Positions 7,426 through 31,929 of a stretch of 64,000 bases of DNA are shown in pieces; position 1 is the stretch's first letter, and each line of letters opens with the position of its first letter. Source of the DNA: Thuidium tamariscinum (lineage: Eukaryota > Streptophyta > Bryopsida > Hypnales > Thuidiaceae). Below the pieces are notes generated by a model. The model saw nothing but the letters and a program-made list of their open reading frames with translations, ran no database searches and was not told the origin of the DNA. Both the position numbers and the translations under genes were made by a program. Location of the stretch: positions 26,595,369-26,659,368 of the forward strand of contig OX344754.2 of assembly GCA_947034885.2 (NCBI GenBank), written 5' to 3'.

Positions 7426-7757
7426 TCAATTTCTGAAATGACATGTTCTATTCAAACACATGTGTTCATTGATTATTTGATTATCATTGTAGCCTATGCA
7501 CTAGAAATCTAGAATAGTGCCCTATGGGTGAATACAAGAAACACTTATACTATTTGTTGTGTTTTTTTTGCTTCATTAATAAGGCTCTAAATTTTGAATA
7601 ATAAACTCAATGCAAAAATCTAAAAAATACATTTCTAGATATCTTGATTGCAATTGTTACTCTTATTTTTCAGAAATTTTAAAAATTCATTTCATATTTG
7701 AAATTCAATTTGATTAATTTGGCACAAATTCCATTGAATGGGGTTTTTAGTATTATT

Positions 7758-7868
7758 GGGTCATTGCAAGAAACGGCTTTCAAAAAGCGTAGCATTTTTC
7801 ACAATACTCTTGTTTTTTTCCGGGGTACTTTAAAATTAGAAAAATAACTTTTTTTTTAAATTAAAAAA

Positions 7869-7919
<51 letters not shown>

Positions 7920-8005
7920 ATTTAATTTAATTTTTTTATATTTAAAAAAAAGGTACCTTTAGAAGGAAAAGTCTAGAAAAATTTTCTAAGTAGGTGAACT
8001 AGGAA
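7758..8005 (-). mobile_element. Left part of the MITE split by the giant hAT element
   Basis: This starts with GGGTCATTGCAAGAAAC at 7758, after the target duplication TATT (7754-7757), and follows the family consensus to CTAAGTAGGTGAACT. It then stops at the hAT terminus. The rest of the same element resumes at 30096 and ends GCAATGACCC|TATT at 30987-30991. It includes an (AT)n tract at about 7872-7914. Confidence 0.85.
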
Positions 8006-8039
8006 CAGGGTTGACGAATCGCTACGTCCAGGGCAAAAT

Positions 8040-8205
8040 TACGTCCAAAATCCGGACGTCTGGACGTTCGGACTTAGTGGACGTAGTGGATGCTGTCCTC
8101 GGCGACCGGCGGACGGAGTAGCGGACGGAACTGCGGACGGCCAAACGGGCGGACCAAACTGCAGACGGGCGGTCGGCCAGCGGACGGGAGGATGGATGAG
8201 TGGGC
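8040..8205 (+). repeat. GGACGG subterminal array, left end of giant hAT
   Basis: Repeated GGACGT then GCGGACGG units in a GC-rich patch immediately inside the left terminus. The right-end array (29337-30085) carries the same unit in inverse orientation. That is the arrangement of transposase-binding subterminal repeats in hAT elements. Confidence 0.7.
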
Positions 8206-9390
8206 GGTTGATTGCATTTCTGGATTTAGGGTTTTCAAATAACATGTAAAGTAGATGGCTTGAAAAGCGACCCTTTAAGGGCTCTTTGGTTTTTTTGATG
8301 GGTTGAAGATGCCCAAAAATATTTCCCCTTATTTTTCATTTAAAGAACCATTGATGCGAAATCTAAACCAAATGGTTTCATATTTTTCCAAGCATTCATA
8401 AATTACTTATGTTTTCAAAGAATTCTAGCATAGGTATGTATTTGTGATTCTAGGTCTTGCAAGTTGCAAAACCCACACATGCGCAGTATGGAGAAAACCA
8501 TGGCTTGACCAAAAACAAGCAATGAAGTGCTGAAAAAGTAATACTTCAGGTTCCTAAATGTGACCTTTCCTAAAATTAAGCCCTAAAACCAACATTGTCT
8601 TCATATACTTTTAAGTCCAATTGAAAGTGCTATAACTTTTGTATCCGATTTCCAAATTCAACAAAACTTGTTGGAAAATTTGCACACTCTCTTCTAGTTT
8701 GTGTGATAAAATTTTTAGAACAATCTCAGTTATACACTTATACTGATTTCTTGGGAGTCAATCAAAGTTCACAAATTCAATTTGAATTCACCAAACTGCA
8801 TTGAGATGGCTTCAACTTCAGGGGCCTGTATCTTTTTCATCAAATGTTAGTTTTCAAAAAAATGTGTTGGGTTATGTTTTCCTTGAAGCCTAATTATTGT
8901 CGTAAAATTTTATGGATTTATTTATTTTTGAAACAAATGGAATTCCATTCCAAAGGTCGATTTTTGAGCTTTTTATAGGGATGCTTCTAAATAGACTGTC
9001 GCAATTCGAGCCACCTACCTTATCATGTTTCGTCCATGTGACCATATCCACGAACCAAACATTGTCACAATTTAATTTTTGTTCATTATTTTTGAATACC
9101 ATGAAACCAAAAAATCAAAAATCAATAAATCATAGTGACGTTTCCAACATGCGCATGAAAACTTATATTACTTTCAAAGGTTCAAACAAACCATTTCCAT
9201 TACAACTTACAAGCTCCATGCTACCATGTACCATGAATATCTAAACACCTAAGTCTACATTCCTTTAATTTCTAAGGCTTGTAATCAACGTCTCCTCTCA
9301 CCTCAGCTCCACTACTATGACCTCTTGAATCCCATTCCGAGTCTTCTTCATCACTTGTGCTTTCCATACTATCGGATGAAGACTGTAGAG
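8206..9390. other. AT-rich spacer in the giant element
   Basis: No credible gene. ORFs at 8890-9244 are short, overlap on both strands and lack domains. The 3' end of the transposase gene lies to the right. Confidence 0.4.
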
Positions 9391-9391
9391 C

Positions 9392-12300
9392 TCACTCTTT
9401 TCTTCCGGATATTTGCTTTGATGCAAGCGATCTCTTGCGTCTACCCTTCTTTTGCTCTTTCACCATGTCTCTAACTCCTAATGTAGACTTCCCAATCCCT
9501 TTTTCGAGACCATTAACTGGTTTCACTTTGCTTTGTGAAAAAGGTTCACATACATCAAGGGGGGTTCGACCTAGACTTTTCCGCTTCGATGGTGATCTTG
9601 CAAAGGCCTCCAGTATTCTTTTATTTTTAGCTTTCTTGGACTCTTTCATTGCTGGTTGTCTTGCTTTTGATCCGCTTGGAATGATGATCTCATTTGCGCC
9701 CAAAGAAAGTGATCGATCCGATGACTTCAGCGAACGTGGACCAAACATGGACTCCAACGTTTCATCTTCTTCTGGATCCTTATCTCGGTAGCGTAAACTA
9801 CCGAGACCACCTAAACTTGCATTGCCGCTTTTGAACAGTATGCGTGGAGGACCGCTACGTGAGGGTTTAGTTGGATCTCGTGCGAGGGGCTTCTTGCCTT
9901 TGCCATTCTCAAATGACATGGGGCTCCCAAACTCCATCATACCTACATCTACATGTGTTGCTACTCCCCTTGCTTTACCTTTCTCGGTACTCGCAAGACA
10001 GCTTTTCTTACACGCCAATACTTCAACAAATGCAACACTTGTATCACCTACATTTTTGTCCACCTTCACTCCACTGTCTCCCAAGTCATTTTGTTTGCCA
10101 AGTTCTTCTGCTTCGACCCCTATTGGCGATGGACATTTAGAAATTGGAATCAATTCATCCGGGGTCGAAGTCCCACCGATGTTCATCGTTGCCCCATTTC
10201 TCTCTTCCATTGCCACATTAGTGTCCTGGCTATGTGCTCGAACATTCTCACTACTCAATACTGTAGTTCCATCCATAAATTTAGCTTTTGATGGGACACC
10301 CTCATCATAGTCGTAATTCTCCTCGTCCGCTTCAAAATTGAAGACATCCAATGGATTGTCTTCAAAGTCTTCATCATTATGATGAGGGTCTTGGGATGGT
10401 TCATCAACCAAATTAGTCACATTGTATTCCACATCATATTCATCATCAAAGAGGGGATCTCTCTCTTCACCATCGCCATGATCTTCACCACCCTCATCCT
10501 CTGACATGGACTCTTCCATATCCACATTCTCGAATTGCTCTTCGTACCACTTCTTCTCATCATTTTCTTGAGATGCGGAAAGGACTTTAGTATTGGTGTA
10601 CACATACACCAAATCTTGTGCTCTCTGTGGCGTCAACTTGTTTCGAGATTTGTTGTGAACAAATGAATAGCTACTCCAATTTCATTCACATGAAGAGGAA
10701 GATACCGGTTGGGCCAAAATACGCTTGGCAATTGGAGCAATGAACTTCCCGCACGCGCCCTCAAAATCCCACCAAGCATGCGCCGACAATTGTTATTCGT
10801 CGGGGTTCAACATATTGTGGAAAGGGGGGTCCCCATGTCGAAAGGCTACAAATTCCTTCACAACAGCATCATACTCTTCTGTGGTACATACTTTCATTAA
10901 AACACGCTTGCATGCATCCATTGCATCTTGATCATCAGCAAGCTCTTTGTCGTGAAGAAGATAGGGATTCAACAAAGCCCCTGCATAATGTAGATCTGTC
11001 TCTACCATCGCTCGCCGTTCGTGAAAGGCTTCTTGTAGTTGGATGGCTAAATCCAAGGACAAACTAAAAGGTGCTTCGTCCAACGACAAAACGTGCTTCT
11101 GTATTTTCTTCATGATATGTAGCACCTTCCCCATACATGGCCTTTTTGCATCCAAATCGCGTAGACCATGTACCACCGGAGCCGATAAATCCTTGAAATT
11201 TTGACAACGCCGCCAAAAATGCTCGTTCAAAATGATGTCCTTCACCCTTCGGCACACACTACGAGCATTAGTATTCCGCCCTAATGTTTTCACGTATTAT
11301 TCCCACTGTGGGTCCGTCACCGTTTGCTGTAATTTCCCCTTCACCTTCAACATACGGTCCACCATGTTGTAATTCGAAGCAAACCGAGTTTCCACCGCCA
11401 TCAACAACATGCAGTCCGGCGAGTACCTTCGAAATATTGCAAGAGGCATGTGCCTCTTTTTGAAGAATTTCACTACGTTACGGGCATTGCCCACGACCTC
11501 CTCAATCCACCATTCGTTGCCCCAATCTTTCACTAATAAATTCAAGGCATGGACCACGCAACCCTGGAAAAATATATGAGGGTACTTTGGAGATATCAAC
11601 TTGTATGCGGCTTCATTCACAGGCGCATTATCTGCGCTTATTTGTACTATTTTGGAAGGACCCACTTCTTTTATGAATTTTTCCAAAATGGAGGCCAAAT
11701 AGGCGGCATTCTTCTCTTTTCCTGTTGTATCCTCCGATCCTAGGAATTGCTCGCCCGTAGAAGACTCGAGCATTGCATTTACCAATGGGCGATTTGCCGC
11801 CGAAGTCCACCCATCAATAGACAATGTTGCTCCAAACTTCCTGATGCTGTCTTCTGTTCGCTTGTTGATATTCACTTTAATGTCTGCCTTCGCTTAATCA
11901 AGCAACTTATGTCGTAATTCATGGTATGACGGTGGGGTATAGGGTTTGTGAAACTCAACCGTTTTCTTCACCGCTTCTTTAAATGCTGCATTCTATGCCA
12001 CCGAAAATGGTATGTTCGCAGCATAAAAAAAATTAGCCCACACTGCATGCAATTTCCGTCTATTCGCTTCTTCAAAGCCATCTCCTATCCGCCTCTGCAC
12101 CAAAGGCCTATTAGTTGATCCTACCGCTGTGTCTCCTTCATCAGATGCTTGAGTACTTGCAAGTGCTCCAGAAGACACACGGACAATTTCTTTTGGTATT
12201 GTACAAGAATCTTCCGGTGTAAGACGTATTGACGGTGTCAAGGGTCTCTCATTTGCTGCATCATTTACAACCGTGGCCTCCACTGTCCCGTTTCCACCCA

Positions 12301-12538
12301 AATTCTCGTTTTCACCTCTTCGTGGGATTACCCCCTTGCACTGACGAAATAGCTTCTGAACTTGGGATGTGAGTCGTGGACATAGACTGATTCCTCAATC
12401 AGGAGACCCCGATGCACCTTCATAACCAAGATGGCTAAACATACGGCATGTTTTTTTGGCAAACACTAGGTTGCAGGCTTTGCATTGTACTTTCCTAGCT
12501 GAAGAGGCGCCATACCAAGAAGACCAATCCTTGCTCAT
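9392..12538 (-). pseudogene. hAT transposase pseudogene (BED, DUF659, hAT dimerisation) with long acidic tail
   Basis: One frame runs 1049 codons from ATG 12538 to the stop at 9392. It is broken only by stops at 12395-12397, 11993-11995, 11894-11896, 11297-11299, 10793-10795 and 10682-10684, with no frameshift. Order: a BED-like zinc finger (VQCKACNLVF, then the SHLGYEG region); DUF659 (LSIDGWTS, then the ISADNAPVN and VVHALNLL blocks); and the C-terminal hAT dimerisation region (WWDFEG, then CE*NWSSYSFVHNKSRNKLTP), where the stop replaces the usual Arg of CERNWS. After the dimerisation domain comes an unusual tail of about 380 residues. It is first strongly acidic (SEDEGGEDHGDGEE) and later basic (KKGRRKR near the end). 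This is probably the original transposase of the giant element, now dead. Confidence 0.88.
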
Positions 12539-12795
12539 AATGATGAATTTTTAGTGCTTCTTTGGAACTTCAAATTTCAAGTGTAACCACAAAAAGGGTG
12601 AAGATCTCCGCAGGAATAAAAATCGTCAATAAAGTAACCGATACAGTTAGAATGAAGCCTTGGAAACCAAAGCCCCCCTGACCACTGAACTATGCATTAC
12701 CAAGCAAGGGACACAACCGAAATTGCAGCGCCTAGCCCTTGGAAATCTTAGCATTCAGCTTTACAGGAGTGCTTGCAAATGACAATTTCTGGAGA

Positions 12796-12801
12796 CTTAT
12801 A
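12796..12801 (-). promoter_or_regulatory. TATAAG upstream of the hAT transposase
   Basis: TATAAG on the minus strand lies about 258 bp before the transposase ATG. It is not embedded in GGACGG units, unlike the boxes of the other three genes, so support is weak. Confidence 0.3.
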
Positions 12802-12836
12802 ATCCTCAGTTCTAAGGTTGCTCTTTGTGACCGTTG

Positions 12837-13078
12837 CAACGGACGGGAGACAATCTCGATTGACAATGCGGACGGAACAGCGGACCGAACTGCAGACGGC
12901 CCGACAGGGTACTCCGATCGGCGGACGGTGAGACGCGGACGGCCAGCGGTCGCGGACGGACCCCCAGTCGGATGCCAGCAAGAGGCGGACGGCCCCCGAT
13001 CGGACGGCCTTCCGTAGCGGAAGAATCGCGCGGACAACGGCGACTGGCGGACGGCCCCGACAAGGCGGACGCATCCAC
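12837..13078 (+). repeat. GGACGG array behind the transposase gene
   Basis: A GC-rich patch of GCGGACGG and GACGGCCC variants that sits 5' of the transposase, with the unit in antisense orientation to it. It adjoins a fragment resembling the variant piggyBac-like MITE (about 13100-13370). Confidence 0.7.
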
Positions 13079-13377
13079 AATTCCAGATTAGTAATTTCTA
13101 CCATTTCAATGGACATATATCCTTTTTTTTACCCTGACAAATTCAAACACCTCCACTTCATGATGTCACATTTGTATGAAAAAATGTTGAAAATGTTGGT
13201 TACTCTTTACATTTATTTCGCAATGGAAGTTACTTATGTGATTGAAGAACTTCAAATCATTTGGAATTGTACAAATAATAGAAAAAAAATAATAAATAGA
13301 AAGAAGAATGAAGTGCTTCAAAATAATGAAATGTGAACAATTCATTTTCGCAAGTGAAAATTACCGGTTTCAGTACT

Positions 13378-14292
13378 TTAACCCCCAAAGGACCAAGAGT
13401 CCACTTGGGGGACTTCAAGAATTTGGGCAAGTACTTGTCACTTCAATTTTGAATGAATTTGCTTGAAATTTTCACATAACTCAGATAGAAAACTTCATTA
13501 GCTTTGTGGGAATATTATTCTTTTCCAATTGGTGACCATGAGCCAAAGTTATGCCATCTTTAATATCATTTTCATGTCGCCGGGAAGAAAAAAAATCATA
13601 AAAAACTTCAGAATTAAAATTTTTTTATTTTTTTTATTGATTTTATTTTTGTCTACAAGTGAAGCTTTGATTCATTCCATTTGGATTAGTGATGTGAAAG
13701 TCATGAACAATCTTGTTTCGGACAATGTAAGCATGTTTTTGGAAAAAAAAAATTTAGGATTAATTTGTGAATGCAATTTCCACAATTTTCAATAAAAAGT
13801 TGTTGGACAAGGTTGGTTTTGCTTGCTAAAACAATTTCACCATTGGGATTATAGTGTTTCAATTCAATGTATGAAATATTTGCAATTCACTTTCTCTTTC
13901 AATCTTGAACCTACATCTACTTCACAATTTTCTAAAGAATGAAAAAAAAAACTTTATTTTCTGAATTTCTTTTCCTAAGCTGTTACCCCAATTTCTCAAT
14001 AGAAAAAAGTTTAAATTCAAAGTCTGTAGACTGTAGTGCAAAAAAATTACAGAAATGGAGGACAAAGTCATTTGAAGTTGCAAACTCAAGTTTAAAAAAA
14101 CATTGTTTTCCAACTTTGAATGCTCATATCTTCCTATCTATACGGTCAAACTTCATGAAATTTCCACCACATTGGACAGTGGACACATCTTGTGTGAAAA
14201 TCTGAAAGACAAACCCTAAAAAAAACCCATTCATAATGAGCTGCTCGATATTGCTATGTTCCAAAAAACCGAGTTTGGTCTTTCAGGGCTTA
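13378..14292 (-). mobile_element. piggyBac-like MITE, copy 2 (diverged)
   Basis: It starts TTAACCCCCAAAGGACC and ends in a decayed TTGGTCTTTCAGGGCTTA. The internal block with 'cttccatttggattagt' and the phrase near 14100-14170 (caactttgaatgctcatat) match copy 1 in reverse. It lies inside the giant hAT, so it inserted after that element formed. Confidence 0.6.
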
Positions 14293-14856
14293 CAATTATA
14301 CTGAAATTGTTATTACAACTGGACTTCAAACATCTAAAACTTTGTTTTAGAGACAACAAATCACAAATGACTTTCTTGTAGACTAAATTGAACTTGGTTT
14401 CTTTAAACTCTTCAAGATCATGGTAATTTCAAAAAGATTTGGAAAAAAATATGGAATGATCAAAAATGAATTTATAAAGTTCTGTAGTGAACACAATAAT
14501 TTTATTTTTTTCCCTGCATAGAAGAAAACCTTGATTCACATATCCCATTCTCTTCTGGAATTAAAATTAGCCTTTTGCATCATCAAACAAAAACATCTTC
14601 ATATATGATCAATTGATCATATGATGGTGCATGTCAGACTTCAACTAAAATAAAATTCTTGAAATGTATACACATTTGCAACTCTGTATTTCACACATAT
14701 TTTCGTATTGATAAAAAAAATACAAACCATACTATAGCTACTATGAATGATTTGCAATGAATCTCTGAAAGATTCAAAGTTAAAACAAATCCTCTGTAAT
14801 ATAATATCTAACAGCTAATAAAAGATTCACTTCTACTATATCTTTTCACGAATACC

Positions 14857-17800
14857 CTACGGTGTAACATGAGATGGACCCTCTCTATCCCTAAGTCTTG
14901 CACTTGTACGGCGAGTGTGAGGACCGGGGCTTCCTTCGCCAGTGGACCCTCTCGAAGCCATTGCCATGTCAACCGCACTGAATTGTCTTTTTGTTTTTGG
15001 AGAGAAGTCATCCTCATCTTCCACCCTCCGCTTATTCTTTCGCTTCTGAGGCAGATCCACTTCATGTGCCTTTAATGCTTCCAAGGCATCATCTATTGAA
15101 GATACCATCAAGTTTAGTGTTACATTGACATCTCCAACGGAAAACCAGTGCGGGCCGGGGCCATCTCCTCCCACTAAAAATTTTCAAAAAGACATTACGG
15201 CCTCACTCATCCTCCTGTCAAAAGCCCCTGCCACTTCCACAATTGACTGTGAGGAGTTGGAATCCCCGTCTAACTCTACAAGAGCTCGAACCTTGGCAGC
15301 TTCTTCCAACTTTGACAGGAAGAGGGCCCTCCCTATCAATGTGTGATTGTACCCCTCGTATCGCTCTTGCAACTCTTTTGTATGCTCCACATCCACCCAA
15401 TTGCCATCTGGTCCTTTGTTCACTTCCTTCTCTGGAAATCGAAAGAACTTGTGATGGTCTATGCTCCAATGTCCACCCATGCCACGGCAAAACAATTCGC
15501 GAGCTTCGGCATCTTCAATACCCCTTGCTCGCAATTCCACGTGTCGATCTCTGGTCATCCACACAAAGGGATCCAGTGGCACCATTGAGTCTTCATACAA
15601 CCCATGCTTGTCTTCCAATGAATCCCACGTGAGAGGTTTTCCCCAATGCATATAATTTTGGAAGTAAAACGGGGCTTGATCAAGTGGAAGGGTCCATCGA
15701 TTGTATTCATGACTAGGGGGCATACATTCCAAGGTCCCAACCATTTCGTAGAACCTAGAACTCAAAGGAGAACGACACTCCGGACAAACCGAGCGAACGA
15801 GTGAGGCTTTGATTATGCACGTCACATGGAAAGTGTGACGACATTAGCCCATAGTTAGGGCTCCCTCGGGACCAAATGGACCTTGACAAATGCTGCATTT
15901 ACCTTCCAAGATCCCTCGAGAAGTGTGAGAAGCATGCACCACTGTCTTCTCATTGTCCTTGATGTGTGTCGAAAGAGTGTTGTACGGAACCCAACCTTCT
16001 TCTACCTCCAAGGCCCAATTGATGTGGGGTGATTCTTCTTTCTTTGTATGGTTCAACCGCTCGAACATCGCGTCCATGTCTCCCCAACACGTGATTTCTG
16101 TAGTCCCCTTTGGATGTGTTTCAAACCTCTTCCTCAAACTCATCAGTGAAGATTCTACTATTTGTTGTTGCTCATCCGATTTTCCTGCCAATTTGAGAAG
16201 CCCTTTCATTGCTCGCGAAACTACGGTTGGTTTGTCTTCTAGTTTTTGAATCCATGCCAACCATCGATCGTCTTTGCTACTCTTTGGAAGGTAGTCATCC
16301 AATCGAACAACATGCTCTAGTCGTTGCAATTCACTCTGCAAAGACGCGTTCTCTTCGGTGAGCTTATCCACTTTCTGCTTCAATTCATCAACTTCATGGC
16401 ATTCTGTTTGAATGGAAGCATCTTGAAATGAAGATGCGCGATTTTCAATGGCGACTACAGGTGTCACTTCCTGTATCTTGTTTTTCTCATTGCCACTGAA
16501 ATGCTTAGCTCCATCTTTTTGCTTAGCTTTGGGAAACTCAGCTTTTTTGATTACGTCCTTCAATGTCCCAACTTCTGACTCCAAAGCTTCAATACGCTCA
16601 GTTTGCCATTTCACTATTGCAACCTGAAAGTGTGCCTCATTCTTGGAAATCCTCAATTGCTCTACCATTTTGTCTGAGGTTTCCTTGAATTCTTCCTGCA
16701 ACGCCACGAACTTCGTATTTTCTTCCAAGAAGGCCACCAATTGGCGCTTGTCCTCGAAGCGCTCGTCCAAAAATGGAAACAAGGACTCCGTGAACTTATG
16801 AAACGTCAATGCACTTGCCAACAATTCAGGTGACAATTTTGCAAAGTCCTGTGCCACCTCTGTAAGTTGCGGAGATACTTCAGCTACAAATCGACCTAGA
16901 TTTGCCAATGTCACTTGGATTTCAGCAACACTTGCCCAACTGCAACGATTGGCTTCACCTTGGGTTGCATTGCTTGTGGTGGCCTCACTTGTCTCTTCCG
17001 ACCGGTTTAGGTCAAGAAGGTGAGACCGAAACATAACTGAAGCCTCCAACAACCGTTCCAGATCTGCGGCATTCGGCATGTTCGAAAGAGCCTCCAATTG
17101 TGATGTGTTCAAGGTGGACAAATGCGGGTATTGGTTGGGGATGACTTCAACATCGATGACTACTTCTTTTCCTTTTCCCTGAGATGCCTCTCCATTTTTT
17201 TTGGCAGTAGCTGCTTCAATTGTTGCGCTCTGTACGGGGCTGGAAACGCTCGGTTTGCTCAAACATGATGGTTTCGAATGTACAAGCCCGAAGATGTCGA
17301 GAGCATTACTGTCAATAATATCATGAATTGTAGCATTGGCCTCTGCAATTTCTCCCTCGGCTACCTCTTCCGTATCTTCACTACCTTCACATTGAGCCAA
17401 TGGGGGCCCACCTTCTTTCTTCCCACTCTGTATATCTTCAAGAATGCCCTGTTCAGCCACCGTCGTAACATTTGGAGTGCATATTAAATCTGTAGGAGGA
17501 GTTGCAAACACTTCTCCTTCCACACCTTCACCTTCAGTATCTTCCATTGTCCTCAAAGTGTGTGTAGGCTGTAAGCGTGGTCCATCACTTGGTACCTCTG
17601 AGACTTTTGTTTCAATTTTTCTAATATTTTTTAATACTCTTTTGGGCTTCAGTACCTCACTTGGCCCTCCTTGAGGATTGTACAAATCGGGAATGTCTTT
17701 TCCATTCATTTCTTGTACAAATGGAGTTTGTGCTGTCGCCGGATACGTGCTCCAATCCACCTTGCGTTCCAATATCAATTCTGCATACACCATAGAAGCC

Positions 17801-18168
17801 AAGCTGTAGTTTATGTACCCTTTACTCATTGCTTTCTTTCCAAAGAGGGCCCGCCAAACCTCCAAAGCGCGATGCACAAAATGAGCGTTATTGCAGTTGG
17901 TGGGTTTGCAAGCAAAACCACGTGTATGAAGTTCATGGGCCTCCCTAGGCCACAACTTGTCAATGTGGTACATTTTCACGTATTTTTTGCACATTTTCGA
18001 AGACCAATACGGTGCTGCCTCCTCCTCCCATCCGTTTTCCGCTTTGATGTTTGGATCATCCAGAATCTCATAATGTAATTCGTGGCTGGCGCCCTTTGGC
18101 TTATGCCTTCGATTGCCACCACCCGCTGCATTTATTCCCCCACCACGTTCATCACCCTCACTTGCCAT
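14857..18168 (-). pseudogene. Large coiled-coil RING-H2 protein with CKKYVKM N-domain, broken by two stops
   Basis: From ATG 18168 (good context, gtcATGG) one frame runs 1104 codons to 14857, interrupted by TAA at 15844-15846 and TGA at 15184-15186. The N-terminal ~130 residues (GWEEE, CKKYVKM, HFVHR, NYS, VDW) match the protein at 28089-29162. The middle is long, acidic and Ser/Thr-rich. It is followed by heptad-rich coiled coils (ELKQKVDKLTEENASLQSEL). Next is a RING-H2 finger (CSIC, then CRHTFHVTC, then CPEC; 15775-15897), and the TAA falls inside it, just before CRHTF. RING fingers usually mark ubiquitin ligases. A C-terminal region with KRKNKRR follows. With the stops it is probably dead, or makes an 774-residue form lacking a complete RING. 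Confidence 0.75.
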
Positions 18169-18311
18169 GACTTCGAGTCCACGAGTGTCGTGAAATAAAC
18201 AATCAGTTTGATCACCCAACTCTCCACCTCGTAGGAGCAACTGGCACAATGAAGCAATAGTAGAACCTCCGACAAGGTTGAACCCAATAATGGAGAGAGG
18301 AGTGAAAGAAA

Positions 18312-20593: not shown

Positions 20594-20619
20594 GTTTGTT
20601 TTCTTTTGTACGCTATGGT

Positions 20620-21985: not shown

Positions 21986-21989
21986 CATA

Positions 21990-22210
21990 AGGCCCCGATC
22001 AGACGGCCACACTGATCGGACAGCCCCGAGGACGACGAGGCGGACGGCCCCGATCGGACGGCCCTGACGAGGCGCGGCGGACGGATCGGACGGACCTGAT
22101 CGGCGAGGCGGACAAATCGGACGGCCACTTCGAGGCGGACGGCCCCGACAAGGTTGCGGACGGGTCGGTCCGTTCGCAAGGTATAAGATGGGCGGACGGC
22201 CCGTCCGCAA
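21990..22210 (+). repeat. GGACGG array and promoter of the kinase gene
   Basis: About fifteen units of CGGACGGCC, many as CCCCGATCGGACGG, in sense orientation to the gene. They end about 195 bp before its ATG. The surrounding DNA is AT-rich, so the patch is a sharp GC island. Confidence 0.75.
22182..22187 (+). promoter_or_regulatory. TATA box within the GGACGG array (kinase gene)
   Basis: The sequence is CAAGGTATAAGATGGGCGGA, about 220 bp before the ATG at 22404, with GGACGG immediately after it. The layout is the same as at 18329 and 29376. Confidence 0.6.
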
Positions 22211-22403
22211 CCGCATTCCTATCTTCCCCCTTGTGTTTCACAAGAGAGAGCGGAGAGCTTGGTGGTTAATCCTCCATTGGCTCCTTTCTAAAGGAAGTTA
22301 GGAGTGGGATTTGGGGCCAAGTTGTTGCCCTTTTTTTGTACGTCTTTTCTGCTTTGTGCTTGAAATCAAGAGTTTTTAAACTCTTATCATTGATTTGATC
22401 ACG

Positions 22404-23900
22404 ATGCCGAAAGGAAAGAAGGTAGCAAAGGCAAGACCTGTGGTGCTAGAGTCGCTAGACATTGAGGACATGCCCTCGGATGATTGCAAGGCATATCTCA
22501 TCCGTATCATAGTGCAGTTTTATGAGGAGGAGAGCACTGCATCCCTTGATAGCAAGTACATCCGATATGAAGAGGAGTGCATTGAGAAGTTCAAATCGGA
22601 TATGATGAAGAGGATGACGGATGCTCTCTACGTTCCAGGATGGATTCATGAAACGGAGAAGAGGGGCTTTCAAAGGTTTCTGCAGAACAGGGTGCAAGAT
22701 TCATTGTGGAATGCCAAAGTGGTATTGGCAAAGTATGGGAAGGAACATCGTGTGGATGATCCCACATTTGAAGAAGTCGTTTTGAAGGCGGACTTGTTTG
22801 TACAACGATGTGCTCCATTTACAAAGAATGCAAGGAAACGGAAGGGACAAGGATCATTGGGTTGGTGGAACACGGATGAAGGAGCTGTAGAATTGCAACG
22901 TGGGCGGCGGCATCTCGTGGCATTGCCCATTACCGCAAGGGTGATTCCACAAGACAGTACAGTGTTGAAGGGGGGCTATGCAACAATCCAGAGGGTGCGA
23001 ATTGAAGGATGTGCTGAGATACAAGCATCTTGGGAGTTTGCAACGAAGGTATCGCATCAACAACGCATGAGGCCTCAACTCGCAAAGTTGGAACACCAGA
23101 ACGAGTCAATGGCAGTGCGGATTCCACATGACGAAGTTATACGATTTGCAGCTGTACATGCAACAAATAATGAAGGGTACATATATTGGTGGAATGGCGG
23201 AACGTTGAGGCAAATGTTGAATATGGATAGGGACTATCCAGATGACATTCACATTCGATTGGCTTATTCCAAGCCATCACCCGAAGAGGTGAATCGAGCA
23301 TTCTTTCTAGGTCGATGGAGAAAGAAACGTACGGAGCTCGCATGGGCATTGGTGCACATTTTGCATGCGGTACATCAAGCTGGGCATCTACACAACGATC
23401 TCTCGCCGGACAACATCATGTTTCACTTTTCGGATGATGAGTCACGTGTATATATTGGGGTTTGCGATTGGGGCATGACTACCGTACATAGTGATCCACC
23501 CAAATCCTTGTACACTTTCACATCTGAAAGTGAGAAGAAAGAAGCTTTACAAAGAAGATGGTGGGTGGATCCGTCTATTGTGTATGTGCATAGAAAAGAT
23601 GCAGATGTGGAAACGATTCCACATTTATCATGTAAATCAGAGGAGTTTGCGGTTGGTAAACTAGCTCAACAGATCAACAGGCAATGCATGTCCAAGGAGT
23701 ACGCGGCGCTTCATCGTGATAACAGAGGACATACAAAGTGGAGCCACCATCAGTTAGGACTTGTGTTTCATAATTATTTGGAACTTCTGTGTTCTACAGA
23801 TGTAGAGAGGGCAGTAAGTTTGACTAAAATCGTCCAACGATTTACTGGCCCAGGTTACAATTGGCCTATCCCAGATGAACATTTCCGCCATTCATATTAG
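22404..23900 (+). CDS. Protein-kinase-like protein carried by the giant hAT (498 aa)
   Basis: The first ATG of the frame (22404, CACGATGCC) gives 498 residues and an uninterrupted frame. The C-terminal half is a protein-kinase fold. There is a glycine-rich-loop-like LKGGYATIQRV (about residue 190) and an FATK with the likely ATP lysine at K215. The catalytic loop is HNDLSPDN (H330, D332, N337) and DWG replaces DFG at D355-G357. All key catalytic residues are present, so activity is plausible. The N-terminal ~185 residues are charged and match nothing I recognise. The promoter has the TATAAG/GGACGG layout shared with the other non-transposase genes of the element. The substrate is unknown. It could act on the transposase or on host factors, but that is inference. 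Confidence 0.8.
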   Translation: MPKGKKVAKARPVVLESLDIEDMPSDDCKAYLIRIIVQFYEEESTASLDSKYIRYEEECIEKFKSDMMKRMTDALYVPGWIHETEKRGFQRFLQNRVQDSLWNAKVVLAKYGKEHRVDDPTFEEVVLKADLFVQRCAPFTKNARKRKGQGSLGWWNTDEGAVELQRGRRHLVALPITARVIPQDSTVLKGGYATIQRVRIEGCAEIQASWEFATKVSHQQRMRPQLAKLEHQNESMAVRIPHDEVIRFAAVHATNNEGYIYWWNGGTLRQMLNMDRDYPDDIHIRLAYSKPSPEEVNRAFFLGRWRKKRTELAWALVHILHAVHQAGHLHNDLSPDNIMFHFSDDESRVYIGVCDWGMTTVHSDPPKSLYTFTSESEKKEALQRRWWVDPSIVYVHRKDADVETIPHLSCKSEEFAVGKLAQQINRQCMSKEYAALHRDNRGHTKWSHHQLGLVFHNYLELLCSTDVERAVSLTKIVQRFTGPGYNWPIPDEHFRHSY

Positions 23901-24452
23901 TATTTTAGTGTTATACGTAGAAGTATAGAAGTATTGAATAGATGTACCGGCAAGGAAATATATCCCTATGTACCTCAACTATGTCATAAAAAGATGTGTG
24001 CATCACAAATTTTCCCAAATATATGTGCAATTCACTTCTATCTCACATTTGTTTTTGCATGTTTTGGTCTTTTGGAACCCCTCATGATGAGTTCACCCTT
24101 GAAGTATTTCTACGAGATTTGGTGTTTTTGAACCTGTCATGATGAGTTGACCCTTGAAGCCTTGAAGTATTGGTTCTTTAGATTTTGATCTACTTAGAAA
24201 GTTTTGAATAATTCCATTTTGATTTGTAAGATGAACGTTATGGCCTTATGGGACTTACTAATTTTTCTAAAATTTTGTGTACATCTTCCCCAAGACCCCA
24301 ATTTGTGCACTAGAAGATCTTAAGGTTACATGTGTCACTTCTAGTTAAAAATTTTGAAGCATGACCCATGGTTACAGCCATATCGATAACTCTATTGCTA
24401 TATCAATTACATTTAAGAAAAAAATTGAACATTAATAATTGGGAAATCCTTC

Positions 24453-25241
24453 TTAACCCCTAAAGGACCAAGGCCTTTTTTCTGTCAAAAAACTCTCAAA
24501 ATTGCCAATTCTGTTGCATTCATCCAAGAAAACAAAAAACAAAAAAATTTAAGAATCTAACCGTAGGATCTTGTACTTAACTTGGTTGAGATGAAGTGGT
24601 AAAAATTTCATGAAGTTTGACCGTACAGATTGGAAGATATGAGCATTCAAGGTTGGAAATACAAGTTTTCTTGAACTGTGGTTTGCAATTTCAGATGACT
24701 TTGACTGGAATTTGTATTAAAAAATTGCACTATAGACTTTGAATTTATAATTTCTTGTGTTAAGAAATTGATTTGAGAGTCTAGGCAAAAAATTTCACAC
24801 AAAAAACACTTGATTTTCATTCTTTAAAAAATTGTTAAGTAGATGTAGGTCCAAGATTGAAAGAAAAACTAAATGGTTAATAACCCTAAGATGGGATCGA
24901 AATACAATAATCCCAATGGTGAGATTGTTTTAGAAAGTAAACATAACCTTGTCCAACAATTTGTTTTGAAAAATTCTGAAAACTGCATTAAAAAATGAAT
25001 CCTATAAGTTATTTTTTCAAGAAATTGTAAAGTTCAGCCCGCCAAATGAAAATTTGGCCTTGTTGTGGTATAACTTTTTCTCCCGGTCACCAATTGAAAT
25101 CAAATTTACATTCCCATGAAGCTAATCAGTTTTCCTATCTTATGAGAAAGTTTCAAAAAGATTCATTAAAAATTGAGGTCTACGGACCCTGCCCGAACTC
25201 CAAATTGTCCCCCGAGGGGACAATGGTCCTTTAGGGGTTAA
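24453..25241 (+). mobile_element. piggyBac-like MITE, copy 3
   Basis: Bounded by TTAACCCCTAAAGGACCAAG and GGTCCTTTAGGGGTTAA. The terminal inverted repeats match over about 18 bp. No ORF. Nested in the giant hAT. Confidence 0.8.
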
Positions 25242-25744
25242 ATTGATTATAGATTTTTTATTTTTTTTTTGAAACAAATGGATTGATAATAGATTGAATG
25301 TTCATAATGTTCATAAGGTTTCTTCTTTGAAATTCCTTCGAAATTGTGAAATACATTGGAAAAAAATAAATTATTTATTCATTTCTTCAATAGATTGAAG
25401 AGGATAGGTTTTAAAACTTTGGAACAATCTTCTACATTAACCCCTAATTGCTCAAACGATCATTTTCCGAAAGTTCTTCTTTACTTTGGGAAAATTTACT
25501 AAACCCAAAAAAAAACTTTTTTGACCTTTTTTCTTCCCGGTTTTGAAAAAATTAGGTTTCATTTGAACATTGATATTGAAAACTAAGATCAGTACGATCA
25601 AACAAAAGGTATAGCCAAAAAAAGGAGAAATAGTACAAAGTGTCTAAAATTGCTTAGTGTTGAGGAACGTACTATTTGGAAGAAGTACTAAGGCTCTCAT
25701 TGATAAACACTATTTATTTTTCAACAAAGCAATAAGAACCACAG

Positions 25745-26600
25745 TTTTGACCAAAGTAAAAAAATTTCAAACCCTAAGAATGGAAATTGTATTTTTGGTG
25801 AATTTTTGAAGTTATATCTTCAGAAATCATTTAAAGAGAATGTATGAATATTTTTTAATTTTGACCATATGGGTACTTTCTACTTTTGTGCTTTACATTG
25901 TCTTCTTTGATGCTAACTTCAAAAATGTTGTAAATCTTATATTTCATAACGCATTTGTATTTTGTCTTAATACGTTGGGCTTGTAGAGGTTGAATTTCTG
26001 GCATTTCTTTATAAATCAATGAAAAACAGAATTTTGACCAATGAAAAAGAATTTCAAACCCTAAAAATAGGAATTGTATTTTTGGTGAGTTTTTGAAGTT
26101 CTATCTTGAAAATTCATTTGAAGAGAATCTATAAATATTTTTTGATTTTGATCATATGGGTACTTTCTACTTTTTGTGTTGTACATTGTCTTCTTTGATG
26201 CTAACTTCAAAAATGTTGTAAATCTTATATTTCATGACACATTCGTATTTTGTCTTAATACCTTGTGCTGTTAGAGGTTGAATATTTTGCATTTCTTTAT
26301 AAGTCAATAAAAAACAGAATTTAGACCAATCAAAAAGAATTTCAAACCATAAAAATAGAAATTGAATTTTTGGTGAGTTATTGAAAATTTATATTCAACA
26401 TTCATTTAAAAATAATCTGAATTTTTTTTTACTTCGACTGGATGGATAGTGTCTATTTTTTGTGCTTTACATTATCTTCTCATTCTTCTTTGATACTAAC
26501 TTCAAAACAATCGTAATGTTTATATTTTATAACATATTTGTGTTTTGTCCTAACCCGTTGGGGTTATAGGGTTCAAAATGCATCGGCCTTTTGAACTTGT
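25745..26600 (+). repeat. Three tandem copies of a ~287-bp unit
   Basis: Units begin near 25747, 26033 and 26320, each with tttcaaaccctaaraatrg, a 'ccatatgggtactttctac' block and 'tacattgtcttctttgatgc'. Divergence increases toward the third copy. Non-coding. Confidence 0.75.
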
Positions 26601-27149
26601 TCATTATTTAAAAACAACAACAATGTGAAGATCTACTAAAGTACTAATTCCATGAGTCTGAGGAGTCCTATATATTCAAGGACTTTTGAAGGTTTGGGGT
26701 ATTGAAGTATTGAAGAAGTACACTTCAACTAAGTTTGTGGCAACAAATTTTGGGCCTTTTTTCTGTATGGAAAAATTGATTGGGTTTTTGCCTTTTTGGT
26801 AATATAATTTTATTTCAATTGTATTTTGAGAGAAAATTTATTCCCCCTAAGGCCCAATGTAGGCAATAGAAAGAAAAACATGAATGATTTTTAAAATTCC
26901 TTTTTTTTTTAAAATAGCATTTTTTTCTACGTAGAGAAACTTAATTTATTTTCATTGGATAAGACGTTGTGATGGCTATGAATCTTCTTGTTTTTCAAGC
27001 AAATCACAGTAAACTTTTGAGAAGGAGATGCATTACATCCATTTTAATAGTTGAATAGAGAATTGCATAAGGTTTAGTTCTTTTTTTTCAAAACGGTTTC
27101 ACCATTGGAATTAATGTGTTTCAATTTGATGCAAGACCTATTACCAATT

Positions 27150-27812
27150 TAGTTTTTGTGTACATTTGAAGCTTTGATTCATCCTATTTGGACTAAAAAT
27201 GAAAAAGTTATGGACAATCTTGTTTTTTGGGCAATCTACGCATCTTCTTCAGAAAACAACTTGTACAATTCATTTTTGAATGCAATTTTAAATTTTTACC
27301 AATTTTTTTTTAAAAGCTTAAGTTTGTTTTCAAGAAAAATCCCACCGTTGGGATTATGATTTTTTAATTCAATATAAGGGCTATTAAGAATTCAGTATTC
27401 TGTTCAACTTTGGACCTACTTCTACTTAACAATTTTTTTTTATGTGAAAATCAAGTTCAAGCATTGTAAAATTTTTATCCCCAACTCTCAACTCAAATGT
27501 TCAAGATAAAAAATTTTGACCTCATGGTGTGTAGTGCAAAACAAATCCAGAAATGGCCATGAAAGTCACGTGAAATTGCAGGACGTAGTTGAATAAAACT
27601 TTGTTTTCCAACTTTGAATGCTCATATCTTCCAATCCGTACGGTCAAACTTCATGAAATTTTTACCACATGTTGTTAGAGAAGTGAAGTACAAGATTGTA
27701 CGGTTAGATTCTAAGAAAAAAAGTGTTTTTAGGTTTCTTGAGTGATTGCAGCAGAAATGGCAGTTTTCAGTGGTTTCACAGCCAGAAAATGCCTTGGTAA
27801 CTTAGGGGTTAA
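27150..27812 (-). mobile_element. piggyBac-like MITE, copy 4 (truncated)
   Basis: The right end is CTTGGTAACTTAGGGGTTAA, matching the left end of copy 1 in reverse. The left terminus is missing, and a rearranged internal fragment lies at 27080-27150. Confidence 0.65.
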
Positions 27813-28088
27813 TTTGTTTTTGGGGCAAACATAATGAACACACAAACTCACAGCTTTGTAAATAAGGAGGCAGCATAGAAGCTTCACAAAGAAAATGGGA
27901 CATAATTGAATCGGAATTTACAAATAGGCGTACTCAAAATTTGTATTCAAAAAATGGCAAACATCCTCATATCGTCCTTATGCCAATCTGTATCCTATGG
28001 CAAGAACATACAAAAATCGATTGCTAATTACTATATTTCTATTTTAAAGCAAGCATTGTTTCGCTACAATCTTCCAAATTTTTTTCCC

Positions 28089-29162
28089 TCACTCAGATTC
28101 CGAATCGGTGTCATCTTTGCGAGTTGGGCCAGTTGAACCAGATCCAAAAGTCCCGAGAAATGGTCCACCACCCCACATGTCTCCAGATCCACTTGATGCA
28201 CCTCCATGCCCATAATTTCCATAGTAAGGTCCTCCAAAAGTTGGAGGAGGAATTGAATCATCACGTTGAGATCCCTTGTGCCGTGTATCATTATAAGAAC
28301 TACTTCCAGAGAATCCAGGATAGTACTGAGAACTACCTTGGTTGGAACCATAATCATGTGTGGTTCCTTGGCTGCCTTGGTAGTTGCCATAGCCACCTCG
28401 AGGGTCATTACTGTAGTATGGATCAGTTTGGCGATTTTGTGTCCCATAAACACCATGGTCATGTTGATACGATCCATGAAACCCATGTGGTCGACCACGA
28501 TCCTCGAGACTTCGTTGCATTGCATCTCGCATTTCTTGCTGGTATTGGATGTCTTCGCGTTCTTGTCTACGCCCAGGTATCTCTCCAAATGACACAAGCG
28601 TTGAAGCATCCTTCTCCTCCTCCTCCTCCGACCAATCATCCTCAGCATCCGGCAATACAACTGGTGCATATCCAAGTTGGCCTCGGTTAGACCACTCTGG
28701 CATACAATCACTTATACCAGTCCAACTCGTATAAATAACAGCATCAGTACGATGCAGTTGGTGGACATTTTTGCCGTAAATTGTGCGCCAATCCACATCT
28801 TTGTGGAGCACAATCTCAGCCCAGACCATGGCCATGTTGGAGTAGTTCATCACATTTGGTTTGGAGTCACGTATTTCAGCTGACCGTGTGACTTCCTCAT
28901 ACCGGTGGACAAAGTGCTTGCTTAGGCACGTCGAAATTTGTCCCTCCCAACGACGAACTTGTTGTTCAGCACGTTCTCTTGACCACATTTTTGAAAGGTG
29001 CGTCATTTTGACGTACTTCTTGCATGTTGTGCAGTCCCAAGATTTCTTCGGCTCTTCCTCCCATCCAGGTTCTGCTACACACAAAGGGTTTGCCCAATCC
29101 TCCCAATTCATGTCTTGGGATTTGCCCTTGGAACTGGATTTTGGTTTATCATTGCGAGGCAT
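28089..29162 (-). CDS. Protein with CKKYVKM domain and Gly/Tyr/Gln-rich tail (357 aa)
   Basis: ATG 29162 (ACCATGCC) opens an intact 357-residue frame. Residues ~30-150 match the start of the RING pseudogene at 14857-18168: GWEEE, W, CKKYVKM, H, K-W-RE, HFVHR, EV-R, NYS, WAE, VDW. CTTC plus later Cys/His suggests possible metal binding. A strongly acidic patch (DWSEEEEEKD) follows, then an R/Q-rich helix. The last ~140 residues are a low-complexity Gly/Tyr/Ser/Gln/Asn tail (GGYGNYQGSQG, GGPYYGNYGHGG) of the kind that forms condensates in RNA-binding proteins. The gene lies just inside the right end of the giant hAT, with a TATA/GGACGG promoter. No named family is recognised. Confidence 0.75.
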   Translation of the reverse strand: MPRNDKPKSSSKGKSQDMNWEDWANPLCVAEPGWEEEPKKSWDCTTCKKYVKMTHLSKMWSRERAEQQVRRWEGQISTCLSKHFVHRYEEVTRSAEIRDSKPNVMNYSNMAMVWAEIVLHKDVDWRTIYGKNVHQLHRTDAVIYTSWTGISDCMPEWSNRGQLGYAPVVLPDAEDDWSEEEEEKDASTLVSFGEIPGRRQEREDIQYQQEMRDAMQRSLEDRGRPHGFHGSYQHDHGVYGTQNRQTDPYYSNDPRGGYGNYQGSQGTTHDYGSNQGSSQYYPGFSGSSSYNDTRHKGSQRDDSIPPPTFGGPYYGNYGHGGASSGSGDMWGGGPFLGTFGSGSTGPTRKDDTDSESE

Positions 29163-29336
29163 GGTAATAAAATTACCCCACAGTTCAAAATTAGGGTGAT
29201 GGGAATTTTGGGGCCCGCAAAAGCAAATAATAATTAAAACTCAATACTATGAAAGTATTCAAGTTTTAATCACAACCATCTCACCAAATTGAAAGGGGCT
29301 CACAGAGCTCGAGGCACTGGATTACCCACTTCGGAA

Positions 29337-30085
29337 GGCGGACGATTGTGCCTCAATGAGCCGTCCGCGATGCTACTTATACTCGCGGACAGCGGGCGAC
29401 GTCCCATCAAAATCCGACGGCATTCAGCGCGGACGGACTCACGGAAGATCGTGCGGCCAGGATTGATCGCCAGTCGGATTCGGTGGTGCAGACGGACTGC
29501 GGACGGAGTGTAGACAGACTGCGGACGGGCTGACGGACTGCGGACGTTGTGCCGGCGAACTGCGAACGGCCTGCGGACGCTCTCCGCACCATCCGCCCGT
29601 CCGCAATGCGTCCGCAATCCGCCCTAAACCCGTCCGCGCGTCCGCAAGCCGCGCGATCGGGGCCGTCCGCGCGTCCGCAACCCGGGTAGAACCCGTCCGC
29701 GCGATCGATGCCGTCCGCAGTCCGCCTGCAACCCGTCCACAAGCCGGCAGCAACCCGTCCGTGCGATCGGGGCCGTCGGATCGGGGCCGTCCGCGCGTCC
29801 GCAACCCGGCTGGAACCCATCCGCGCGATCGGTGCCGTCCGATCGGGGCCGTCCGCAGTCCGCCTGCAACCCGTCCGCGCGTCTGCAAGCCGGCTGCAAC
29901 CCATCCGCGCGATCGGGGCCGTCCGCGCGTCCGCAACCCGTCCACGCGACCGCACTCTGTCCGTCCGAAATGCCGTCCGCGGAAGTGTCTGGTCGTCCGT
30001 CCGCTGGACGTACGCAAACAAAATTTCAAATGTCAATGGACGTCCGTGGGTTAGCGTCTACGTCCCGTGGACATCCGGACGTCCC
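29337..30085 (-). repeat. GGACGG array, right end of giant hAT and promoter of the 28089 gene
   Basis: This is the largest array (about 750 bp). On the minus strand it is built of GCGGACGCGCGGACGGG and TGCGGACGG units, with longer higher-order repeats around GCGCGATCGGGGCCGTCCGC. It runs from the gene's promoter to the transposon end. Its six-frame ORFs are artefacts of high GC. Confidence 0.8.
29376..29381 (-). promoter_or_regulatory. TATA box within the GGACGG array (28089 gene)
   Basis: The sense-strand sequence is CGAGTATAAGTAGCATCGCG followed by GACGGC, about 215 bp before the ATG. It is the third example of the layout. Confidence 0.6.
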
Positions 30086-30095
30086 GTCATCCCTG

Positions 30096-30987
30096 ACTAA
30101 GAAAGTGTATAAGAGGATTTTTGGGCCCCCAGAAGACCATTTCAAGGGTGTTCCCTGAAATTGTTCCCACTGTTGCAGACCCGCCCCCTGCTGGTCTGAA
30201 TTTTTGAATTTTGAAAAAAAAAATTAAAAATTTTTTTTCAAAAAACTTCAGAATGTATTAAAGAGAAAAAAAATTGATTTAAAAAAAAAATAAAAATTTA
30301 TATTTAATTAAAATTAATAAATTATTATTATTTCTGACGTGGCAGTCGCTCGACTACATCATCATTGCGTTCCCACTGTTCCCAATGCGTTCCAAGCGTT
30401 TGGGAACTCGCAATCTTATACAGCAAGTGAAAATCCTCTTATGCAAAATCTCATTAAAGCAGTTTTGTCATTGTAATTTCACATTTTAATTTATATAAAA
30501 TAGAAAAAGGAATTTTTTAAAATAAAAATTATCCATTTAGGAAGATTTGATATTGATGACATTTCACTAAAAAAAAAGATCCAAGAACCATCTTCAATGT
30601 TCAAAAATTGTTCGCAACAGAAGTGTTGTTTGTACTCATGTGGAGGACTTAAAATAATGTATTTTTAGATTTTTTTTGGGTAGATATGAGATTTTTTTTA
30701 TGCAAGTAGACCATGAAAGTTTCAACTCCAAATATTTAAATTTAGGGGCTCATAACGTAGTGAAAACCCCTAAACCTCAACTTGTGACAAATTAATAAAA
30801 ATAGTTTTAAAATATAAAATGATTTTTTTAATTTCTAAAAAATAAGAGATGTGAAAACTTTAAAGTTACACATCTTCAATAAAAATTTCATGTTCATTCA
30901 ACTTGCGCTGCAAAAGTTATTGTAGACAATGAAAGAGTATGTCCAATTGTGATAGCAAAATAGTACCACTGTTTCTTGCAATGACCC
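30096..30987 (-). mobile_element. Right part of the MITE split by the giant hAT
   Basis: It resumes the family consensus at AGAAAGTG, is interrupted by a 335-bp element (30108-30442), continues CAAAATCTCATT and ends CTTGCAATGACCC at 30987. TATT (30988-30991) then matches the TATT at 7754-7757. Confidence 0.85.
30108..30442. mobile_element. ATAAGAGGATTTT-terminus MITE, copy 1
   Basis: Inverted ends ATAAGAGGATTTTTG and GAAAATCCTCTTAT. Inside are several GTTCCCA/TGGGAAC motifs and an A/T-rich core. It interrupts the split MITE exactly between AAAGTG and CAAAATCTC. A homologous, inverted copy lies at 48941-49243. Confidence 0.7.
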
Positions 30988-31929
30988 TATTTTGAACCCC
31001 AAAAAAAGGAATTTTAAGATGAAATTTTGAGAGGATGGTTTTCTAGTATGTTTGTTTCTATTTACTAAAGGAATTTTGAAAATAGTTAATTTTGTGTGGT
31101 GTAGAAGTCCACAAAGGGATGTTTTTGTTGCCTCTATGGGGTTTTCTTTTTGAAACTTAAAAAACATTATTTTGGTATTCTTTTTGTTCAAATTTCATCA
31201 CCAAAAAGTCTTCTCAAATGGATAATTTTTAGATTTTCTTAAAAAAAATTCCTATTTTTTATAAATTAAAATGTCAAAGTTGTATTTTTCTTCACTAGAA
31301 TTTTAGACATAGGAATCCAGTGAAGAAAATAGATACTTCAATGTTTAAATTAATAAAAAATAAGGATTATTTTTCAAAATAAAAATAAAGATTGTCCATT
31401 TGAGAAGGCTTTTTGGTGATGAGATTTGAACAAAAAAAATATCAAAATAATGTTTTATAAGTTTCAAAAAGAAAACACCACAAAGGCAACAAAAATGTCC
31501 ATTTGTGGACTTCTACACCATACAAAATTAAATATTCTTAAAATCCTTGTTGTAGATGTGAGTGTGGTTCCTATAAATTTATAGTCATTCAAAGCTATAA
31601 CACAAAAGTTATAGCCAAAAAAGTAGTCATCAAAAACGTATAAGTGAAAATAATACAAGTGTTTCTTACATTCACCCCTATACACCTTCTACTTCCAAAA
31701 ATTGCAATTAATTCATCCAATGTTCAAAATTTATAATAAAAATCTCTACTACAATGTTTCTAATTTTTCTTTCAACCAAAAATTAAAAATTAAAAATTAA
31801 ACCAATAAATTTTTCCAAAAAAGGCTACTTTCCCTTAGATGGACAATTTTGTGAGCCTTCTACCTTATTAATAATGGAACTTAAAGGCAATTGGAAGAGG
31901 AGAGTTGATCAATTACTGTCATCAATAAA

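Follow-up and report, generated by a model that had tools for sequence, protein, structure and literature searches.

We analysed a stretch of 64,000 nucleotides from the moss Thuidium tamariscinum (contig OX344754.2, positions 26,595,369 to 26,659,368 of the forward strand), referred to below as the window, and found that it holds a giant transposable element of the hAT superfamily. The element spans 22,090 bp (8006-30095) and carries four genes, namely a hAT transposase and three further genes that we call ORF A (a RING-H2 protein), KIN (a protein with the protein-kinase fold) and gene D. It is present in dozens of copies in the host genome, and a second family in the same genome keeps the same four genes within hAT ends. 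Taking together the ends, the copies, the four genes, the second family and the arrays of short sequence words at the ends and in front of the genes, we are highly confident that the structure is one unit.

The sequence CAGGGWTGACG has only two perfect matches in the window, CAGGGTTGACG at 8006-8016 on the plus strand and CAGGGATGACG at 30085-30095 on the minus strand, and these are the ends that a preliminary description of this DNA had given as CAGGG(T/A)TGACG. They are flanked by an 8-bp target-site duplication, ACTAGGAA on the left and ACTAAGAA on the right, which agrees at 7 of 8 positions as that description had stated; random pairs of 8-mers from the window flanks reach an agreement of at least 7/8 with a frequency of 0.0006. 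ACGTCC words were found in the arrays at both ends, in line with the claim of ACGTCC-rich subterminal DNA. The proposed 22-kb unit also stands, but its right limit had been placed at 30103, which takes in the right duplication, and the element itself stops at 30095.

The insertion had been described as splitting a miniature inverted-repeat transposable element (MITE), and this agrees with what we found. The terminal inverted repeat (TIR) of the MITE, GGGTCATTGCAAGAAAC, is exact at 7758-7774 and 30971-30987 with TATT on both outer sides, and the rejoined flanks align collinearly with an intact copy at 58786-59516, the aligned blocks having 74-76% identity and one of them spanning the junction. 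When up to 3 mismatches are allowed, GGGTCATTGCAAGAAAC has 13 matches in the window compared to 0.27 expected. The small element at 30108-30442, which had also been described, is present within the right part of the MITE and has a 76% identical relative at approximately 48954-49211. The intact MITE copy at 58786-59516 has an apparent 4-bp duplication (TGAG), and further copies in the window lie at 36851-37584 (TTAG) and at 47025-47777, the latter with no clear 4-bp duplication.

The host genome assembly that we searched comprises 363 Mb in 19 contigs. Searching it with a 201-base probe that spans the left end yielded at least 41 matching 5' ends including that of the window (40 of 941 candidates scored). 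Among the 40 matches listed outside the window, 37 start no more than 4 bp from base 8006, 25 of these precisely there, and the flanking DNA differs between the window and the seven other loci compared. A same-strand KIN lies downstream within 40 kb in 37 of the 41 5' ends listed, at a distance of 13.8-15.7 kb in 29 of them; none of the 41 has an opposite-strand KIN downstream, and one has a KIN upstream. Similarly, 40 of the 42 ORF A rows listed have a divergent KIN within 20 kb. These pairing counts used 78 of the 87 kinase rows, leaving out eight at 57-61% identity and a short fragment (C2:828955), and in two cases a pair of 5' rows was matched to a single kinase.

Six other loci were read over 30 kb, and transposase, ORF A and KIN were present in all six in the order and orientation of the window, with roughly 90-97% nucleotide identity to the window in the main collinear blocks. 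Gene D was seen in four of the six within the stretch read; at C3:10197766, gene D and the 3' end were not found after 6 kb more had been read, and at C6:11174573, where two copies overlap, the stretch read stopped before the gene D region. The results for transposase, gene D and 3' ends come from individually read loci. Three other complete copies measure 21,320, 22,013 and 25,662 bp from end to end. In the family of the window element (family 1), exact and mutually different 8-bp duplications were found in 10 of the 14 copies examined at both ends, nine of the family-1 copies having been read at the two ends only. The duplications are TCTATGAC, ATTATAGG and AATACAAC in one set and CTCATAGA, GTGGACCT, TTCCTATC, CTCACACC, GTTACATG, AGCACACT and AATTTAAG in another. 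The preliminary description had proposed a search for further copies that share the termini and the gene set and are flanked by different 8-bp duplications, and such copies do exist in the host genome; ends belonging to separate short elements, or the genes at fixed loci without the ends, were not seen. As a separate observation, the copies C3:10143925 (-) and C3:10197766 (+) are inverted relative to each other and 54 kb apart, and GTTATACA is found next to the 3' end of one copy and next to the 5' end of its counterpart, as if the stretch between them had been inverted by recombination; alternatively, C3:10143925 has flanks of its own that match with a 2-bp shift.

At least three genes in addition to the transposase had been claimed, and ORF A, KIN and gene D are indeed real frames beside it. 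The transposase frame, read through its stops, matches PF05699 (E 1.6e-9, 37.9 bits against a cut-off of 21.4) and PF04937 (E 5e-34), and the transposase relatives P0069 and P0070 likewise qualify for PF05699. Residues D242, D303 and E618, candidates for the catalytic acidic residues (DDE), are invariant across 9 aligned transposases. The N-terminus bears Cys/His residues, and no BED zinc finger was matched in Pfam at E 0.01. ORF A has the eight Cys/His zinc ligands of a RING-H2 finger (C758, C761, C776, H778, H781, C784, C795 and C798), which are invariant in 13 aligned proteins; PF13639 scores 31.5 bits, above its cut-off of 27.3, and RING proteins are among the PDB matches. For KIN, a fold search against known structures supports its identity as a protein kinase, and a profile sequence search of PDB gave no match at E 0.001. 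Residues K215, D332, N337 and D355 are invariant in 24 aligned sequences (the alignment took in 23 of 54 homologues), and KIN has the fold, the Lys, the catalytic Asp and the DFG-type Asp of the kinase superfamily.

The kinase search of the assembly gave at least 87 rows (86 of 666 candidates scored), 79 of them at 88% identity or higher and eight at 57-61%. The 78 rows used lie on 11 contigs; 42 have no internal stop, 38 of these over at least 489 of the 498 residues, and 36 have stops. The ORF A search gave at least 42 full-length or near-full-length rows (42 of 1,398 candidates scored), 20 of them without stops. The frames of transposase, ORF A and KIN are all open at one further locus or more. 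The window element is an old copy. We calculated the mean pairwise ratio of nonsynonymous to synonymous substitution rates (dN/dS) within family 1 as 0.54 for the transposase (28 pairs), 0.44 for ORF A (21 pairs), 0.30 for KIN (21 pairs) and 0.36 for gene D (10 pairs), values that blend a constrained history with decay after insertion. The five wrong frames of the same alignments gave 0.65-0.77, 0.57-1.15, 0.38-1.09 and 0.41-1.26, respectively, and the true frame has the lowest value of the six for each gene. Conservation across families is a stronger argument than these ratios.

Such conservation is seen in a second family (family 2), for which the evidence is one complete copy at approximately C2:29175811. 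This copy is 22,248 bp long and has CAGGG ends with the terminal motif CAGGG(T/C)TGTGCGG and the exact duplication ACATGAAA on both sides. Its proteins are 48.5% (transposase), 39.6% (ORF A), 58.2% (KIN) and 56.9% (gene D) identical to those of family 1. Gene D sits between ORF A and KIN in the opposite orientation, and has therefore been moved and inverted relative to family 1. There are 5 stops in the transposase match of this copy, 2 in ORF A and none in KIN and gene D. That the four genes were kept within hAT ends despite deep divergence and rearrangement argues for a conserved core and not for incidental cargo, and the three extra genes look like core genes of the element instead of variable cargo. 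The preliminary description had likened the element to cargo-carrying giant transposons, but the word cargo is a poor fit, since the genes recur in the second family.

At C11:3057127 the kinase is present and transposase and ORF A were not found within the 30 kb read. Approximately 13.5-19.3 kb of that stretch, corresponding to KIN and the 3' part of family 2, is shared with C2:29175811, and we read the locus as a putative truncated family-2 copy. The kinase relatives at C11:3372901, C11:12187302 and C11:2628005 have 60-61% identity and several stops, and may mark a third family. Outside this genome there are 54 kinase homologues (two named Ceratodon purpureus, one a cluster of 126 member sequences), at least 12 ORF A homologues (7,994 candidates scored) and at least eight transposase homologues, one of them distant at 22% identity (7,990 candidates scored). 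The ORF A homologue P0058 and the transposase homologue P0070 each come from a single contig of 17,649 bp and probably lie on one contig of another organism. The kinase homologue P0004 is filed under a metagenome-assembled genome of a Bacilli bacterium, and is probably moss DNA in the bin, that is, contamination. No relative was confirmed among IMG/VR viral contigs, with the kinase alone or with the kinase, ORF A and transposase alignments (few short peptide patterns), or among contigs of prokaryote genomes in one scan with the kinase alignment (few short peptide patterns).

The ends and the genes are accompanied by arrays of related words. Most GGACG/CGTCC words lie at most 350 bp from an end or at most 700 bp upstream of a gene. 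This applies to 72 of the 82 words of the window element, with an upstream to downstream ratio of 49:3 around the genes, and to 72 of the 90 words of family 2, with a ratio of 43:0; the corresponding counts for three further complete copies are 81/89, 70/78 and 53/73. Gene D is preceded by an array in both families though it was moved and inverted. The arrays of the window contain CGGACGG 43 times, and the window outside the element lacks this word. No GGACGT word lies within 700 bp in front of the transposase, ORF A or KIN in family 1, or in front of any of the four genes in family 2, and 11 of its 15 occurrences in family 1 are at the ends. The coordinates of the features are collected in Table 1.

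Table 1. Features of the window element and its insertion site (positions in the 64-kb window).
Feature	Position	Strand	Remarks
Whole element	8006..30095		Basis: ends, duplication, other copies starting at or near base 8006
5' terminal inverted repeat CAGGGTTGACG	8006..8016	+	End-motif scan
3' terminal inverted repeat CAGGGATGACG	30085..30095	-	10/11 identical to 5' repeat
Left target-site duplication ACTAGGAA	7998..8005		
Right target-site duplication ACTAAGAA	30096..30103		7/8 compared to left
Left MITE part	7754..8005		TATT flank 7754-7757
Right MITE part, holds small element	30104..30991		TATT flank 30988-30991
Small element nested in right MITE part	30108..30442		
hAT transposase gene	9272..12538	-	Single frame, 1,088 codons, 7 internal stops; DUF659 and hAT dimerisation domains
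ORF A	14857..18168	-	About 1,103 codons, 2 internal stops; RING-H2 finger and long predicted helices
KIN	22404..23900	+	Open 498-aa frame, protein-kinase fold, no internal stops
Gene D	28089..29162	-	Open 357-aa frame, no stops; N-terminal domain common with ORF A, low-complexity tail
5' subterminal array, CGGACGG and ACGTCC words	8006..8220		
CGGACGG array upstream of transposase gene	12820..13090		
CGGACGG array upstream of ORF A	18345..18535		
CGGACGG array upstream of KIN	21985..22215		
CGGACGG and ACGTCC array, upstream of gene D and 3' subterminal region	29330..30095		

Several further observations touch the element and its surroundings. Between ORF A and KIN, the plus strand at 20026-20600 resembles by eye the C-terminus of a different hAT transposase; the open reading frame 20026-20409 has no Pfam match, and the DNA around this stretch recurs in other element copies. 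Members of one interspersed repeat family lie at 6492-7376, 13139-14172, 24453-25241, 27146-27814 and 32047-32935, that is, in the flanks as well as, in three cases, within the element, which indicates that the element has collected nested insertions. A short telomere-like AGGGTTT run lies inside the element at 18737-18796. A decayed gene with DUF7869 (PF25273) was found at 54325-57187 (-) in the window and at L029:6-2920, where it lies near a putative truncated family-2 copy (E 3.9e-41 and 8.4e-39); in our reading it is of mobile-element type. The right edge of the window, 61706-64000, is a satellite of 176-178-bp units, and a C11 locus (L028, approximately 5524-7618) has repeats with BLAST offsets stepping by about 176 bp.

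A number of results weigh against the interpretation as one unit with four core genes and arrays of its own. Among the rows listed, KIN is missing downstream of 4 of the 41 5' ends and from the neighbourhood of 2 of the 42 ORF A rows, cases that may represent deleted copies or rows beyond those listed, and two loci have no 3' end in the DNA read. The flanks of C3:10143925 and C3:10733799 agree only when shifted by 2 bp (8/8 and 7/8, respectively), and C5:93820 has unlike flanks. The dN/dS margin between the true frame and the lowest wrong frame is small for all four genes (0.54/0.65, 0.44/0.57, 0.30/0.38 and 0.36/0.41), the pairs are not independent and single pairs reach up to 0.99. The predicted structure of ORF A, with a mean pLDDT (predicted local distance difference test) of 47, is too poor for a fold search, and no Pfam family scores above its cut-off for the N-terminal domain that gene D has in common with ORF A. 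In front of the transposase the array comprises few words, 3 in family 2 and 2 in the C6:5199320 copy. Family 1 suggests that one word belongs to the ends and another to the promoters, which is borne out only in part by family 2, where only 6 of 12 GGACGT words are at the ends. GC-rich DNA in front of the genes could also reflect promoter composition instead of binding sites.

Other explanations of the extra genes have to be considered. They could be incidental host genes that were captured by one hAT lineage and amplified as passengers, Pack-MULEs being an example of host-gene capture by transposons. Kinases and RING proteins are common host families, and multi-gene hAT-type units are known, such as ToxhAT with about 14 kb and eight genes according to the accessible text of its description (PMC6737239). 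We nevertheless consider capture unlikely, as the four genes occur together in the second family at 40-58% protein identity with their order changed, P0058 and P0070 each come from a 17,649-bp contig, all four genes are single frames with mean dN/dS below 1, and motif arrays are kept in front of the genes. It is also conceivable that the helper genes serve the host, as domesticated genes or beneficial cargo, and that selection acts on host benefit, which would suit the lowest mean dN/dS of the four in KIN (0.30) and the 42 of 78 KIN rows without internal stop; but 78 similar rows on 11 contigs, 36 of them with stops, are the pattern of an element and not of a fixed host gene, and we regard this explanation as very unlikely.

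Marginally less probable still is that the extra genes belong to an older mobile element or virus that is nested in a plain hAT and was carried along by it. Other repeats do lie inside the element at 13.1-14.2, 24.4-25.2 and 27.1-27.8 kb, together with the fragment at 20026-20600 that resembles another hAT C-terminus. However, we saw no other pair of ends enclosing these three genes (no systematic search was made), the order of the genes changes from one family to the other yet they remain inside hAT ends, and the arrays in front of the genes are built from the same words as the hAT ends. The least probable explanation, to which we assign next to no weight, is that the two ends are separate short hAT elements that flank unrelated genes by chance. 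The subterminal DNA is repetitive and the internal arrays resemble it, as this would have it, but the far ends are paired by one exact 8-bp duplication in 10 of 14 copies, different each time, and in 29 of 41 listed cases the distance from the 5' end to KIN is 13.8-15.7 kb; the paired duplications refute it.

We then compared the preferred reading, a single hAT unit with four core genes, to known systems. The dimerisation domain, the 8-bp duplication and the type of TIR place the element in the hAT superfamily. Both CAGGG(T/A)TGACG and CAGGG(T/C)TGTGCGG of family 2 fit the hAT TIR consensus [T/C]AGNGNNG given in the accessible text of a plant hAT survey (PMC6027215), and the 8-bp duplication is also exact in the one family-2 copy examined. 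The element resembles Ac/Ds and plant hATs in its dimerisation-domain transposase, short TIR, 8-bp duplication and short subterminal repeat words; for Ac, the accessible text of one source describes binding of the transposase to AAACGG repeats in the terminal 200 bp, and a 4.6-kb element with one transcript for one transposase (PMC3260210). Unlike an ordinary Ac-like hAT of a few kb with a transposase only, the present element has 22 kb and four genes. The preliminary description had called a 22-kb plant hAT exceptional, given that these elements usually have a few kb and carry only a transposase, and this is upheld by the survey of 276 sequences, in the accessible text of which the longest is 7,144 bp, from a green alga, and none is reported in the moss Physcomitrella (PMC6027215). 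A plant or moss multi-gene hAT was not found among the titles and abstract openings listed from an open-access library, which is no proof of absence with most subscription papers and bioRxiv outside that scope. The element lies outside the known hAT range that we found, in both size and content.

MuDR and En/Spm are autonomous plant elements with a non-transposase protein, but they belong to other superfamilies and have one helper compared to three. VANDALs are of the MULE type, a different transposon class. They share with the present element an element-encoded helper and dense motif arrays in their own non-coding DNA, and VANC binds such arrays in its own element and causes methylation loss according to the accessible text (PMC5735166); binding and methylation loss were shown there, whereas here they are conjectural. 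ToxhAT of cereal-infecting fungi also has a hAT-like transposase gene in a long multi-gene unit with TIRs, but its genes are mixed and some are separate repeats, and the accessible text describes no conserved helper set across families (PMC6737239). Starships, as far as the accessible text goes, are likewise large, carry many genes and are mobile as one unit (PMC12134995), but they are fungal tyrosine-recombinase elements with accessory cargo, whereas here a hAT transposase and a small gene set are found in both families. With this hAT transposase and constant gene set the element does not qualify as Starship-type (no search aimed at a tyrosine recombinase was made).

Cut-and-paste through the ends is established for hAT elements, and the 8-bp duplications show it for the unit here as well. 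The transposase would cut and paste the unit via the CAGGG ends and, by analogy with Ac, would bind the words near them. Because ORF A and gene D share a domain they are candidate array binders, and their proteins may bind the CGGACGG-type arrays via this common N-terminal domain, by which the element would recognise its own copies and activate them. The kinase and the RING protein might modify the transposase, or host silencing or repair factors, and the helpers might act in the manner of VANC proteins, which free VANDAL elements from silencing. The Ac and VANC analogies are leads and not tests, and we give a regulatory or anti-silencing role of the helper genes somewhat less than an even chance. 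Equally tentative is the wider picture, namely that a plant hAT lineage built a private control consisting of a kinase, a RING-type ubiquitin ligase, a companion protein and one motif at the ends and before four genes, probably with the purpose of evading silencing or timing transposition, and that it split into families within the genome and across mosses.

If so, it would to our knowledge be the first case of a DNA transposon whose core genes supply a phosphorylation and ubiquitination machinery of its own. Ever since Ac, hAT elements have been investigated as elements with a single gene. The present element, alike in its architecture from copy to copy and with its genes found again in a second family, shows that a constant group of helper genes, and not only random cargo, can be maintained by cut-and-paste elements of eukaryotes. 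Since many frames are open and the arrays are compact, manipulation of the host by post-translational modification would be directly testable.

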